32,301 nucleotides of DNA from Gammaproteobacteria bacterium (GTDB lineage: Bacteria > Pseudomonadota > Gammaproteobacteria > GCA-001735895), in the NCBI GenBank assembly GCA_014382695.1, contig JACNJF010000146.1, positions 1 through 32,301 on the forward strand. Reading direction: 5' to 3'. Each line of letters begins with the position of its first letter. Positions within the stretch are counted from its first letter, which is position 1. The notes under the pieces are model-generated. The model saw only the letters and a list, made by a program, of their open reading frames with translations. It was not told the origin of the DNA and did not search any database. Position numbers and translations under genes: made by a program. This document shows positions 21,335 through 26,182 of the stretch, in pieces.

Positions 21335-21700
21335 TTAGCGCTCCAGCTGTTGCCGGATCAGTTCCAGCACTTCTTTATAACGAATCGGTTTAGCCGCATA
21401 GCCATCACAACCAGCACGCAGAATAGTCTCCCGGTCACCATCCATCGCCCGCGCGGTCAAGGCGATCACCGGGATATGGCTAGTCAGCTTATCCGCCTTC
21501 AGAAGACGCGTAGCCGCCATCCCGTCGATACCCGGCATATGTATATCCATCAGCACCAGATCCGGTAACATCTGCCGGATCAGTGGTAAACCTTCCTCGG
21601 CATTTCCGGCTTTAATCACGGTATAGCCGGCATGCGCCAGCACTCCACAGATGAGTTTCATGTTGGAGAGATTATCTTCAACCACTGCAATCACTGCCAT
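21335..21700 (-). CDS. Single-domain response regulator (DivK-like)
   Basis: A 121-residue receiver with no output: VVEDNLSNMKL at the first strand, acceptor Asp52 in LMDIHMPGIDG, Thr in ALTA and Lys104 in AAKPI. The DNxxNxKL start and short length match DivK-type shuttles often encoded next to hybrid kinases. Its ATG overlaps the stop of the large upstream kinase by one base (TGATG), so translation is probably coupled. I infer it takes phosphate from that kinase or from the MHYT kinase downstream. Confidence 0.94.
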   Translation of the reverse strand: MAVIAVVEDNLSNMKLICGVLAHAGYTVIKAGNAEEGLPLIRQMLPDLVLMDIHMPGIDGMAATRLLKADKLTSHIPVIALTARAMDGDRETILRAGCDGYAAKPIRYKEVLELIRQQLER

Positions 21701-24700
21701 CAGCTAACACCCCTGGAAATATTCACAAAATCATCCACCACTTTTAACAGCCTGGATTGCTTTACCGGTTTTATGATCACCGCGTCACCCCATAATGCAG
21801 CACTATCCATTTCCTCCCTGGTCACAAGTGCGACCACTGGAATAGCGTCATACTCAATATGCTTTGCCTTTTCCTGCAGAAACAGGTTCCCGTTTTCGAC
21901 CATCGAAGCACTGTCCAGCGTGATCAACACAGGCCGCTCTATTGTTAAAAAACTCAGCGCTTCGTGACTGTTCATGGCCTGCTTGACGGAATAGCCTGCA
22001 TCACCCAGATAGAGTTGCAGCAGATTTGCCTGTTGCTGATCCTCGCCCACCACCAACACCCGTTTACGAGCCTTCTCGGCCTCCGGTTTCCACAGTGGAT
22101 CAGATGCTATTGCGGTTGAGTTCAGCAGATGTTGAATGTCACGCAAGAAGGACTGCGCATCAAACTGACTCTTTTCTACAATCTTTAATACCCGGTTATT
22201 AAGCAGTGCCCGATCTTCTTTTGTGAGTATCCTGTCGGTCAGAATCACGACCGGAATATCACGTGTTTGCTCTTCACTATGCAGGCTGTTGATGACCTCA
22301 ATGCCGGTTACTCCTGGCATCATTAAATCCAGCAGAATAAGCTCAGGCTTATGGCGTAGGGCACTAAGCAGTGCGTCTTCACCGCATCCCGCATTCAGCA
22401 CCTGATAACCATTTTCCTGTAGCTCAATGGTTAAACTATTAACAGCGTTCAGATCATCGTCTACCACCAGTATCGTTTTACCGGCATCAGGGCTGTACTG
22501 ATGAATGACGCGCTGAACCGTTTGCAGTAACTGCATTTTATTAACCGGCTTTTCCAGCACATCGACCGCTCCCAGTTCCATACCCCTGTTTCTGTCCGCC
22601 ACGATCGATACCACCATCACGGGGATGTGTGCTAACTGTTGATCCTGTTTCATCTGGCGCATCACTTCCCAGCCATCGATGTCGGGTAATAAAATATCCA
22701 GTATCATCAGATCAGGCTTATGCTGAGCCGCCAGCCTTAAGCCCTCACTGCCAGTTAAAGCATGCAGCACCTGACACTTGACAGAGGATAATTGCTGTGT
22801 CATCAAATCGGCGGCAGACTGATTATCTTCCACCATTAACACTATTTTTTTCTCGGCCAGGCTATCGCTAGTGCTTGCCCGCAGTTCATCGAAGCGCTGA
22901 TTGACGATGGCCATTTCCTGAGTAATGGATACACTCGATTCAGCCTGTTCGTCTAGCAACGTCTCCGTCACCGGCAGCGTGAAACAAAATTGACTACCAA
23001 CGCCAGCACAACTTTCAACGCTGACCTTACCTTGATGCAGCTCGACCAGACGCTTGACCATCACCAGCCCTAGACCGGTTCCTTCATACTTACGCGAGAT
23101 GGAGCCATCTACCTGCTGAAAGGGTGTAAACAATTCCGCCTGCTGCTGTTTGCTGATACCAATTCCAGTATCGCTCACACACACTTTTAGCTGTTGATTA
23201 TGCTGCGTGACATCAATCAAAACCTGCCCACCCGTTTCGCTGAACTTGACCGCATTCGAGAGCAGGTTATAGATCACCTGTTTCAATTTTCGTCCATCGG
23301 CCTGTATCGTTTGAGTCACTTCGGCTGCAATATTGAGTTTGATTTCAATGCTATTGGCATACGCCTTTTCTTTCACAATAGACAGGGCATTGCTGATCAG
23401 TTCATGGATATTCACCGGCTCCAGATAGAGATCCATTTTTCCGGCTTCGATCTTGGAAAGATCCAGGATGTCGTTAATCAACGACAATAAGTGGTGGGCA
23501 CTATTGAAAACTTCCAGCGTATAATCCTGCTGCTGCGCATTCAGATCGCCTAACAGGCCATCCTTGAGAACTTCTGAAAAGCCAATAATGGCATTCAAGG
23601 GGGTCCGTAACTCATGCGACATATTAGCCAGAAACTCTGTTTTTAGCCGACTCGCTCGTTGCAACTGTTTATTTTTTTCGGTTATTTCCTGCCCCCGCTG
23701 ACGCAGTTGTTCGGATAGCATTTTCAGATTGTGATAATGCATACCATTATTCAACGACACCCCTATATGATCCGTTAAGCGCTCGACAAAAGAGATATCT
23801 CTACGCTTGAAGGAATGGGCGGAAGCGATCACGATGACGCCCAGCAGCATGTTGGCAAAAATAATCGGTGCTGCCAGTACGGCCGCCGGGGTGATCGAAA
23901 ATAATCCGCTATCGATCTTGAACGGCATATCGATGCTGGCTGTAATTTCGATCGTTTTGCGCTGTTCGGCCACCTGTCCAATCAAACCTTCACCCAGTCC
24001 AATTTTAGCCGTAAAGCTCTCTGGTACCCCGTAGCTGGTAACCGCCTTGAATGCGGTGCCAGTCTCATCCAGTAAATACACTGCCGACACCGTGAAGTCA
24101 TGATGTTCAGCCAGTATCGGCAGAATTTGCTTGATCACCTCATCCACTTTAAAGCTACTACTCAACAACGCCATGATCTGGCCCAGACTACGCTCATATA
24201 AGGCAGATGCTTTTATCTCGCTGTTTTTATCTGCCAGCGCCTGCTCCGCCATCCGGCGCTCACTGATGTCCTGTTTGATCGCAATAAAATGAGTGACCAT
24301 TCCCGCGCTATCTTTTACTGGAGTGATGGTCTGTTCTTCGGTGTACAGCGAACCATCTTTACGGCAGTTAATCAGTTCGCCCTGCCAGACACGACCGGAT
24401 CGAATAGTCTTCCACAGATCATCGTAGTATTCAGGGGACTGTCTACCTGACTTTAACAGCTTGGGATTTTTGCCAATGACCTCTTCAGCACCGTAACCCG
24501 TCATGCTTAAAAACGAGCTATTGACCCAGCTAATGATGCCTGATTTATCGGTAATCACTATCGCATTAGCCGCGGCTTCCAGTGCCGCTGACTGCAGATT
24601 GAGCTGAGTCATCGCGGCCCGATGCTCGGTGTCATCGCGTACGAAAGCGACAAATCGCCCGGAACCAGAGTCATCACGAATCAGCTGTAAAAAAATCTCC

Positions 24701-25362
24701 ACTGGAAACTCTGTGCCATTCTTTTTGCGATGCACGGTTTCGAAATGCAGCGTGTCCTGGCTTGCGTTTAACAGGGGTTTTATCAGCTCGCGAAACTCTT
24801 TTTCAGAAATATACGGTTTGATATCGTAGGGTGTCAGCTTGAGCATTTCTTCCCTGCTATAGCCCATGGTCTGTTCCGCGCCACGATTCAGATAGATAAA
24901 TTTCAGGGTTTCGGCATCGAACATAAAGATCATGTCCAGCGTATTATCCAGCGTGTACTTGAAGCGTTTAACCTCTTCCATCGCCAGATGGCGTTCGGTG
25001 ATATCCCGCACCACACCGTTGAACATCACTACCCCGTCGACCTCCATCTTGCTTACCGCCAGATCCATCGGAAAGGTCGAATGATCCTTGCGCCTGCCAA
25101 CCACCTCGCGCCCGGAACCTATAATCTGGGCATGCCCGGTATTGAGGTAGTTTTTCAAATACTGGTCGTGCCCGGATCGGTAGGGCTCCGGCATCAGCAT
25201 GTTGACATTATTACCGATCATTTCTTGCGCACTATAGCCAAACATTCTTTCGGCGGCCCGATTGACGCTGCAGATACTGCCTGCCGTATCAATGGTTATG
25301 ATGCCATCGATAACGGTATCCAGAATATTTTTTAGTTTTTGTTCAATGTTCAGATTTCGCAT
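21700..25362 (-). CDS. PAS/GAF hybrid histidine kinase with three receivers
   Basis: A soluble kinase of 1220 residues counted from ATG 25362. Order: PAS (5-126, FixL-like, GREVVGRRKD), PAS (132-250), PAS (257-374), GAF (392-542), HisKA with His583 in MSHELRTPLNA, and an ATPase with Asn703, DTGIGI and GTGLGL. Three receivers follow. The first has Asp889 (MILDILLP) and Lys938. The second has Asp1012 (LLDLMMPG) and Lys1064. The third (1100-1214) keeps Asp1150 and Lys1198 but has GED in place of the normal acidic start, so may be degenerate. The frame is open up to a TTG at 25416, adding 18 residues, but I prefer the ATG because PAS homology begins just after it and the extension spans a local duplication. 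It is the first gene of a long leftward train and overlaps the next receiver gene by one base. Confidence 0.92.
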   Translation of the reverse strand: MRNLNIEQKLKNILDTVIDGIITIDTAGSICSVNRAAERMFGYSAQEMIGNNVNMLMPEPYRSGHDQYLKNYLNTGHAQIIGSGREVVGRRKDHSTFPMDLAVSKMEVDGVVMFNGVVRDITERHLAMEEVKRFKYTLDNTLDMIFMFDAETLKFIYLNRGAEQTMGYSREEMLKLTPYDIKPYISEKEFRELIKPLLNASQDTLHFETVHRKKNGTEFPVEIFLQLIRDDSGSGRFVAFVRDDTEHRAAMTQLNLQSAALEAAANAIVITDKSGIISWVNSSFLSMTGYGAEEVIGKNPKLLKSGRQSPEYYDDLWKTIRSGRVWQGELINCRKDGSLYTEEQTITPVKDSAGMVTHFIAIKQDISERRMAEQALADKNSEIKASALYERSLGQIMALLSSSFKVDEVIKQILPILAEHHDFTVSAVYLLDETGTAFKAVTSYGVPESFTAKIGLGEGLIGQVAEQRKTIEITASIDMPFKIDSGLFSITPAAVLAAPIIFANMLLGVIVIASAHSFKRRDISFVERLTDHIGVSLNNGMHYHNLKMLSEQLRQRGQEITEKNKQLQRASRLKTEFLANMSHELRTPLNAIIGFSEVLKDGLLGDLNAQQQDYTLEVFNSAHHLLSLINDILDLSKIEAGKMDLYLEPVNIHELISNALSIVKEKAYANSIEIKLNIAAEVTQTIQADGRKLKQVIYNLLSNAVKFSETGGQVLIDVTQHNQQLKVCVSDTGIGISKQQQAELFTPFQQVDGSISRKYEGTGLGLVMVKRLVELHQGKVSVESCAGVGSQFCFTLPVTETLLDEQAESSVSITQEMAIVNQRFDELRASTSDSLAEKKIVLMVEDNQSAADLMTQQLSSVKCQVLHALTGSEGLRLAAQHKPDLMILDILLPDIDGWEVMRQMKQDQQLAHIPVMVVSIVADRNRGMELGAVDVLEKPVNKMQLLQTVQRVIHQYSPDAGKTILVVDDDLNAVNSLTIELQENGYQVLNAGCGEDALLSALRHKPELILLDLMMPGVTGIEVINSLHSEEQTRDIPVVILTDRILTKEDRALLNNRVLKIVEKSQFDAQSFLRDIQHLLNSTAIASDPLWKPEAEKARKRVLVVGEDQQQANLLQLYLGDAGYSVKQAMNSHEALSFLTIERPVLITLDSASMVENGNLFLQEKAKHIEYDAIPVVALVTREEMDSAALWGDAVIIKPVKQSRLLKVVDDFVNISRGVS

Positions 25363-25387
25363 AGTTGGTTCAGATTTCGCATAATTG
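25348..25387. repeat. 20-bp tandem duplication across the kinase start codon
   Basis: Two 20-bp units, 25348-25367 and 25368-25387, differ at one base (CATAGTTG versus CATAATTG). Each carries, on the minus strand, an ATG with the same five codons (MRNLN). The left copy holds the preferred kinase start (25362). The right copy starts an 11-codon frame including its stop (25382 down to 25350), in another frame, which ends 12 nt inside the kinase gene. The duplication therefore made an overlapping upstream mini-ORF. Confidence 0.8.
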
Positions 25388-25448: not shown

Positions 25449-25454
25449 ATTATA
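25449..25454 (-). promoter_or_regulatory. Candidate -10 box for the leftward kinase operon
   Basis: The minus strand reads GCGCTATAATC, a perfect TATAAT. It lies about 90 nt upstream of the kinase ATG. The -35 position falls inside the 9-bp repeat array (TATCAA or TCAAAA, both poor matches to TTGACA), so activation by a bound protein is plausible. Confidence 0.5.
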
Positions 25455-25462
25455 GCGCATAT

Positions 25463-25525
25463 TATGATAATTTTGATAAAAATGATAAATTTGATACATA
25501 TGATAGATTTGAAAGAAATGCTACT
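25463..25525. repeat. Array of seven 9-bp direct repeats in a divergent promoter region
   Basis: Seven consecutive 9-mers: TATGATAAT, TTTGATAAA, AATGATAAA, TTTGATACA, TATGATAGA, TTTGAAAGA, AATGCTACT. The TG at positions 3-4 is invariant and TGATA is present in five. The array abuts the -10 box of the leftward kinase operon and ends 48 bp before the rightward HTH-receiver gene. BldC-type proteins bind AT-rich direct repeats head to tail, and the adjacent gene encodes a BldC-like HTH. It is the likely binding site for that protein. Confidence 0.7.
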
Positions 25526-25573
25526 ATACGTGAAATTCCAGTACGTAAACTTTCAGCGCCCTAATGGACAAAA

Positions 25574-26182
25574 ATGTCAGACCCCGTTTCACAGTATGTA
25601 ACCAGTAAACAGGCCTCTGTAATGCTTGATGTCAGCCTGCGGACGATTCAGTTGTGGGTGGAAAATGGAGCACTTCGAGCGTGGAAAACCCCCGGTGGGC
25701 ATCGCCGAATCTTTCTGGACTCTATCAACGAACAGTTGAAACAACGAAAAACCGGTTATTCTCCACCACAAAAACCCAGGCCTTCGAGTCACTCCCTACT
25801 CAAGGTCATTGCGGTGGATGATGATCCCGTACAACTGGAACTGGTCAAGGTGCTGACATCAAGATCTGCCGTCGAGGTAAGCCTGATCACGGCATCTGAT
25901 GGTTATGAAGGACTGGTACTGATTGGGAAGAACAAACCGGATCTGGCCATTATTGACCTGTCGATGCCGAATATTAACGGCTTTGACATGATCCGCGCCC
26001 TGAGCCAGAACGAATCGACCAGCGCCATGAAGATGCTGGTTATCACGGGTCTCAACCAGCAGCAGATCAAAATGAACGGCGGGTTACCCGATTTTGTATC
26101 GGTGATTAGCAAACCGGTCAGTTTTGAGCAACTGGAAACAGTACTCAAGCAGACCGCCACTGCGGTTTTTAGCGGCCCCTGA
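25574..26182 (+). CDS. BldC/excisionase-like HTH protein fused to a receiver
   Basis: A 202-residue regulator. Residues 8-58 are a MerR-like winged helix of the BldC/excisionase type: TSKQASVMLDVSLRTIQLWV, then the wing TPGGHRRI. A short linker (59-74) leads to a receiver (76-193) with AVDDDP, Asp128 in AIIDLSMPNINGF, Thr158 (ITG) and Lys180 (ISKP). The HTH comes first, the reverse of classical response regulators. BldC-type domains lack the MerR dimerisation helix and bind direct repeats cooperatively. It faces the large kinase operon across a gap containing seven 9-bp direct repeats, so phosphorylation-dependent control of that operon and of itself is likely. The ATG lacks a good ribosome-binding site. 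It is the only protein in the window with a visible DNA-binding output. Confidence 0.9.
   Translation: MSDPVSQYVTSKQASVMLDVSLRTIQLWVENGALRAWKTPGGHRRIFLDSINEQLKQRKTGYSPPQKPRPSSHSLLKVIAVDDDPVQLELVKVLTSRSAVEVSLITASDGYEGLVLIGKNKPDLAIIDLSMPNINGFDMIRALSQNESTSAMKMLVITGLNQQQIKMNGGLPDFVSVISKPVSFEQLETVLKQTATAVFSGP

Follow-up and report, generated by a model that had tools for sequence, protein, structure and literature searches.

The window, i.e., the whole stretch of 32,301 nt analyzed here, is a contig of a gammaproteobacterial genome (JACNJF010000146.1, assembly GCA_014382695.1). Its positions 839-32019 are occupied almost exclusively by a two-component cluster of unusual density, which contains several very large PAS/GAF hybrid kinases as well as receivers, Hpt, MHYT, HD-GYP, GGDEF, and EAL proteins. 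Two members of this cluster are transcribed divergently. On the forward strand, a gene at 25574..26182 encodes a response regulator of 202 amino acids, in which an HTH_17 domain (PF12728, E 9e-9) is joined to a receiver (PF00072, E 1e-17). On the reverse strand, a gene at 21700..25362 encodes a hybrid histidine kinase for which domain searches identified three PAS domains, GAF, HisKA, and HATPase domains, and three receivers. Its in-frame ATG is located at 25362-25360, and the start of the gene overlaps a 20-bp tandem duplication (25348-25387; GTTCAGATTTCGCATAATTG, 95% alike) that adds an out-of-frame ATG (25382-25380) just upstream.

Between these genes, an array of seven 9-bp direct repeats (about 25463-25526, forward strand) reads 5' to 3' towards the HTH-receiver gene and is proposed to be an operator. 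Counted from 25463, its units are TATGATAAT TTTGATAAA AATGATAAA TTTGATACA TATGATAGA TTTGAAAGA AATGCTACT, and in the register 25464..25526 they read ATGATAATT TTGATAAAA ATGATAAAT TTGATACAT ATGATAGAT TTGAAAGAA ATGCTACTA. In agreement with the original prediction, the TG dinucleotide recurs seven times in an exact 9-bp step (25465, 25474, 25483, 25492, 25501, 25510, and 25519), and five of the seven units, namely the first five, carry TGATA. TRF reported periods of 9 and 18, and the self-identity of the array amounts to 0.62 at lag 9 and 0.65 at lag 18, compared to about 0.30 at most other lags. The array is far beyond chance expectation: among 5000 dinucleotide-shuffled versions of the intergenic region, TG chains with a spacing of 6 to 12 bp reached at most five members, in a single case, and no TGATA chain exceeded two. 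No other exact copy of TGATA-N4-TGATA-N4-TGATA was found in the 4.0-Mb genome outside the array.

The array is flanked by possible promoter elements on both sides. A TATAAT at 25449..25454 of the reverse strand was identified by sequence reading as a candidate -10 element of the kinase gene, whose -35 position would lie inside the array; the hexamer found there, 17 bp upstream, is ATCAAA, and no good -35 element is present. On the forward strand, a possible extended -10 element of the HTH-receiver gene (TGCTACTAT, 25519..25527), likewise suggested by sequence reading, overlaps the last array unit. A sigma-70 promoter scan returned no convincing promoter for either gene, the TGCTACTAT element included.

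The winged HTH (wHTH; residues 8-58, 25595..25747, forward strand) is of the BldC type by sequence and predicted fold, as domain search, profile, Foldseek, and structure comparison indicate, and the predicted fusion of such a domain to a receiver is thereby borne out. When a profile of 51 HTH domains of the family was compared with the PDB by hmmsearch, BldC (6ama/6amk) was matched with an E value of 8e-8 and a cobalamin-binding MerR relative with 1.5e-8. Foldseek searches with the predicted HTH placed BldC chains on all of ranks 1-7, and VIA yielded Z scores of 8.7 and 8.4 for BldC (rmsd 1.1-2.2) and of 9.2 for Pukovnik Xis. The predicted full-length model (mean pLDDT 91.7) includes a linker (residues 60-75) that is predicted to be flexible, at about residues 61-70. 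In the receiver (residues 78-191, 25805..26146, forward strand), the acidic pocket D82/D83, the phosphoacceptor D128, T158, and K180 are complete and, according to the alignment, conserved throughout the family. Over the receiver, the family profile matches PDB entry 3CNB (E 1.6e-17), a “DNA-binding response regulator, merR family” that comprises the receiver part only and whose name implies the same HTH-receiver architecture. This protein, which we take to be from Colwellia, has no operator or function described in the open-licence literature searched.

BldC, a pleiotropic developmental regulator of Streptomyces, assembles head to tail on 9-bp direct repeats, with one protomer per 9 bp (PMC5859096), which confirms the precedent on which the original prediction drew. 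The wHTH resembles BldC in sequence, fold, and the wing GGHRR (PDB 6AMA, 6AMK; PMC5859096), and its putative operator shares the 9-bp direct repeats and a unit register of TG, 4 bp, and an AT-rich remainder. The residues of the BldC head-to-tail interface (F21, V23, W31 / L11', I40', T42', L43', G44') correspond to L18, V20, W28, Y8, W37, T39, P40, and G41, so that the hydrophobic/Thr/Gly pattern is retained, whereas the R22-E16' bridge has no counterpart (D19 and Q13 at these positions). Furthermore, the YpG-reading Arg30 of BldC is replaced by Leu27, which is invariant in an alignment of 67 sequences, although the TG step of the DNA is retained. Since neither Arg30 nor the bridge is conserved, the contacts would differ in detail. 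BldC is also a stand-alone domain of 68 residues, whereas a receiver is fused here, and the operator is based on TGAT(A/G), unlike that of BldC. Judged from its sequence, the HTH-receiver protein is a BldC-type wHTH in a new architecture and not a BldC protein.

The HTH-receiver gene was absent from all 35 genomes of the same genus or family that were searched. Of 369 genomes sampled across the class, 14 contain full-length relatives, and in a species-level genome collection such relatives occur in at least 531 stretches; the 80 kept from these stem mainly from beta- and gammaproteobacteria. Matches in viral contigs were mostly other HTH_17 proteins with short alignments. The genomes of the relatives are mostly MAGs with automatically assigned start codons. 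A histidine kinase or receiver gene is the same-strand downstream neighbor of the HTH-receiver gene in 31 of 65 cases. In the open-licence papers searched, no description of a MerR/BldC-type HTH-receiver protein or its operator was found, in line with the earlier statement that no example was known, and the receiver-coupled BldC-type family, comprising hundreds of beta- and gammaproteobacterial proteins, is apparently undescribed.

The original prediction had proposed to look for such repeats at homologous genes, and they do recur. In the 150 bp upstream of 86 non-redundant relatives (window excluded), a pair of TGA(T/C) motifs exactly 9 bp apart occurs at 28 loci, compared to a mean of 1.4 and a maximum of 6 in 300 shuffles. 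A spacing of 18 bp was found at 15 of the 86 loci, and all other spacings, including 11 bp, were at or near background in these regions. A motif-free scan of all 4-mers and lags, measured against 466 control upstream regions (p down to 1e-15), ranked ATGA, TGAT, AAAT, ATAA, GATA, and AATG highest, all at lag 9. The window array scores highest of all 87 loci. About two thirds of the loci lack a pair by the strict criterion; some of them have degenerate units, and others perhaps carry the operator elsewhere. Among loci retrieved after the hypothesis had been formed, repeats were again present upstream of L221 (four units), L217 (three units; TGATAAATA TGAAAAATA TGATATCC), and L218, L232, L235, and L238 (two units each).

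In 26 of 29 loci, the repeats are situated 28-73 bp upstream of the start codon. They occur in a single orientation, towards the HTH-receiver gene, and the reverse-strand motif (the inverted TATCA half) is not enriched upstream of the relatives. As this orientation holds whether the upstream gene is divergent (13 loci, window counted) or on the same strand (16 loci), the array appears to belong mainly to the HTH-receiver gene. The suggestion that the array fills the -35 space of the kinase operon beside its TATAAT is thus upheld for the local arrangement, while the conserved partner of the repeats is the HTH-receiver gene. From this comparison of sequences, the array is very probably in the main that gene's own putative operator, which the kinase shares here through divergence, and a BldC-like binding model for the array is well supported. 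The original prediction had also named free drift in repeat number as the mark of a neutral array; drift was judged on Arenicella orthologs, and those examined retain about two core units while their flanks have diverged, which is unlike the behavior of a neutral microsatellite.

The sequence of the unit covaries with residue 23 of the recognition helix (Arg23 in the window, codon 25640..25642, forward strand). At unit position 5, Arg goes with TGATA at 18 of 18 loci and Ser with TGATG or TGACG at 10 of 10, one further Ser-23 locus being tied between units. If all TGATN words within 120 bp are counted, TGATA outnumbers TGATG by 66:6 in the Arg group, whereas the ratio is 1:20 in the Ser group. 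The covariation is partly clade-bound and Fisher p-values therefore overstate its strength; the stronger arguments for a residue-base code are two origins of Ser and structural agreement with BldC. In the tree, Ser-23 is found both in one gammaproteobacterial group and within a betaproteobacterial group with Gly or Ser, i.e., with at least two origins, and the four betaproteobacterial Ser loci show four TGATG and no TGATA. Residue 23 aligns with BldC Lys26, which lies within reach of guanines at base pairs 7, 8, and 17 of the whiI duplex (PMC5859096). In our mapping of the register, which uses the printed sequence and takes the TG step recognized by Arg30 as its anchor, these base pairs correspond to positions 4 and 5 of TGATA. 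Because the unit sequence tracks a residue of the HTH-receiver protein, the repeats are very probably this protein's own site. In genomes of the Ser type, scan hits outside the own promoter fell mostly inside genes, and no regulon is claimed for them.

Three Arenicella-like genomes contain a potential second target. Exact TGATAAWWNTGATA pairs number two to six per genome, and the intergenic pairs cluster at the HTH-receiver promoter and at a second site at a distance of 10-12 kb, a divergent exopolysaccharide promoter that separates a WecG-type glycosyltransferase gene from a polysaccharide-export gene or operon. In these genomes (L170 in G290, L189 in G178, and L190 in G385), the HTH-receiver gene is the first of an operon that also includes an HNOB (H-NOX-type) gene and a gene for a hybrid kinase and is followed by polysaccharide genes; gene content was assigned by a Pfam run on G290 and matched by reading in G178 and G385. 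This arrangement suggests that exopolysaccharide synthesis may be under NO or redox control in the Arenicella relatives. At several Arenicella sites, a TTGACA is itself an in-phase unit and the two units that follow occupy the spacer between the -35 and -10 elements, which would favor repression by occlusion.

Two known systems offer further parallels. CarH and CarA, like the HTH-receiver protein, join a MerR-type wHTH to a sensory domain and have tandem direct repeats over a -35 element; their repeats are 11 bp long with TnnACA, and they sense cobalamin and light and tetramerize via the sensory domain (PMC9304148). In the HTH-receiver protein, by contrast, a receiver takes the C-terminal place of the cobalamin-binding domain, and the spacing is 9 bp instead of 11 bp. 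HnoC of Shewanella is reported to be a response regulator that sits over the promoter to repress its own network and is released upon phosphorylation (PMC12471899, PMC9814549), and its H-NOX linkage is reminiscent of the Arenicella operons. It is also reported to bind an inverted-repeat site as a tetramer, unlike the direct repeats found here (PMC12471899, PMC9814549). HnoC was considered as a possible founding member of the family, but such an inverted-repeat site argues against this.

Taken together, the array is probably the operator of the adjoining HTH-receiver protein, which would coat it with its wHTH protomers, control both promoters jointly, and be switched by phosphorylation. In this model, one wHTH would occupy each 9-bp unit with the recognition helix on TGAT(A) and the wing in the AT-rich remainder, neighboring protomers would touch head to tail, and several of them could coat up to seven units. 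Both the core promoter of the HTH-receiver gene and the -35 region in front of the kinase operon overlap with the array, so that binding would most likely repress the HTH-receiver gene and co-control the kinase. A cognate hybrid kinase, plausibly the one encoded divergently, would phosphorylate the receiver, alter cooperativity or affinity, and thereby switch both promoters. That this widespread family forms phospho-switched cooperative head-to-tail filaments on two to seven 9-bp units, with a one-residue code (Arg23 for TGATA, Ser23 for TGATG) predicting the operators, is a tentative generalization that we consider somewhat less likely than not.

The sign of regulation could differ from this model. 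The same protein on the same operator might activate one or both promoters by MerR-like realignment or polymerase recruitment; the kinase TATAAT lacks a -35 element at normal spacing, a TTATCA copy (25479-25474, sequence reading) stands at a MerR-like 19-bp spacing from it, and the pleiotropic role of BldC itself (PMC5859096) would be compatible with activation. We nevertheless regard activation as rather unlikely, given that, at the Arenicella exopolysaccharide promoters and several own promoters, a good TTGACA lies partly or wholly within the array, which also occupies the spacer between -35 and -10 as would suit occlusion, and that CarH, the nearest sensor-fused analog, represses from repeats over the -35 element (PMC9304148). 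It is unlikely, too, that the protein binds constitutively and uses its receiver for protein-protein contacts, as the flexible linker might allow, since D128, the acidic pocket, T158, and K180 are conserved across the family and kinase or receiver genes so often adjoin.

Direct repeats are also bound by PhoB-type regulators, and TGATAATGATAAT-like sequences resemble a Fur box, so that Fur, an OmpR/PhoB-type protein, or another local response regulator might bind the array with the HTH-receiver gene as a mere target. The reading as a Fur box was dropped, because there are no inverted halves and the spacing is 9 bp. A foreign regulator of any kind is very improbable, as the repeats accompany the HTH-receiver gene family across many bacterial families at 9 bp instead of 11 bp and follow residue 23 of its protein, while the inverted half shows no enrichment. 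Finally, the AT-richness of the array and the second tandem repeat nearby could point to a neutral minisatellite or to intrinsically bent DNA to which no protein binds. This is scarcely credible in view of the Arenicella core units and of relatives with dissimilar upstream sequences that share unit, spacing, orientation, and position.

BldC has established the coating of direct repeats by a MerR-like wHTH, with no known switch; in the HTH-receiver family, a domain of this type is combined with a standard phospho-receiver. The putative operator can be read from sequence, and the residue-base code can be tested by a single swap. The analysis yields a predicted binding site and a candidate regulon, i.e., exopolysaccharide synthesis beside a nitric-oxide-type sensor in the Arenicella relatives, and the family may offer a simple system for how phosphorylation governs cooperative DNA coating.

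Other units were also noted among the relatives. In a betaproteobacterial clade with Gly-23 (e.g., L110 and L137), no clear 9-bp TGAT operator was found upstream; some of its upstream regions contain AAAATT repeats with a spacing of about 10 bp, which may represent an altered operator. Three Legionella-like loci have upstream 9-bp repeats whose unit is another one, centered on CGGAAAT or CAGAAAAAT, as recognized by eye: four copies of ATCGGAAAT and one variant at L010, CCGGAAAAT/CCGGAATAA at L219, and CAGAAAAAT/CAGAATTAT at L220.
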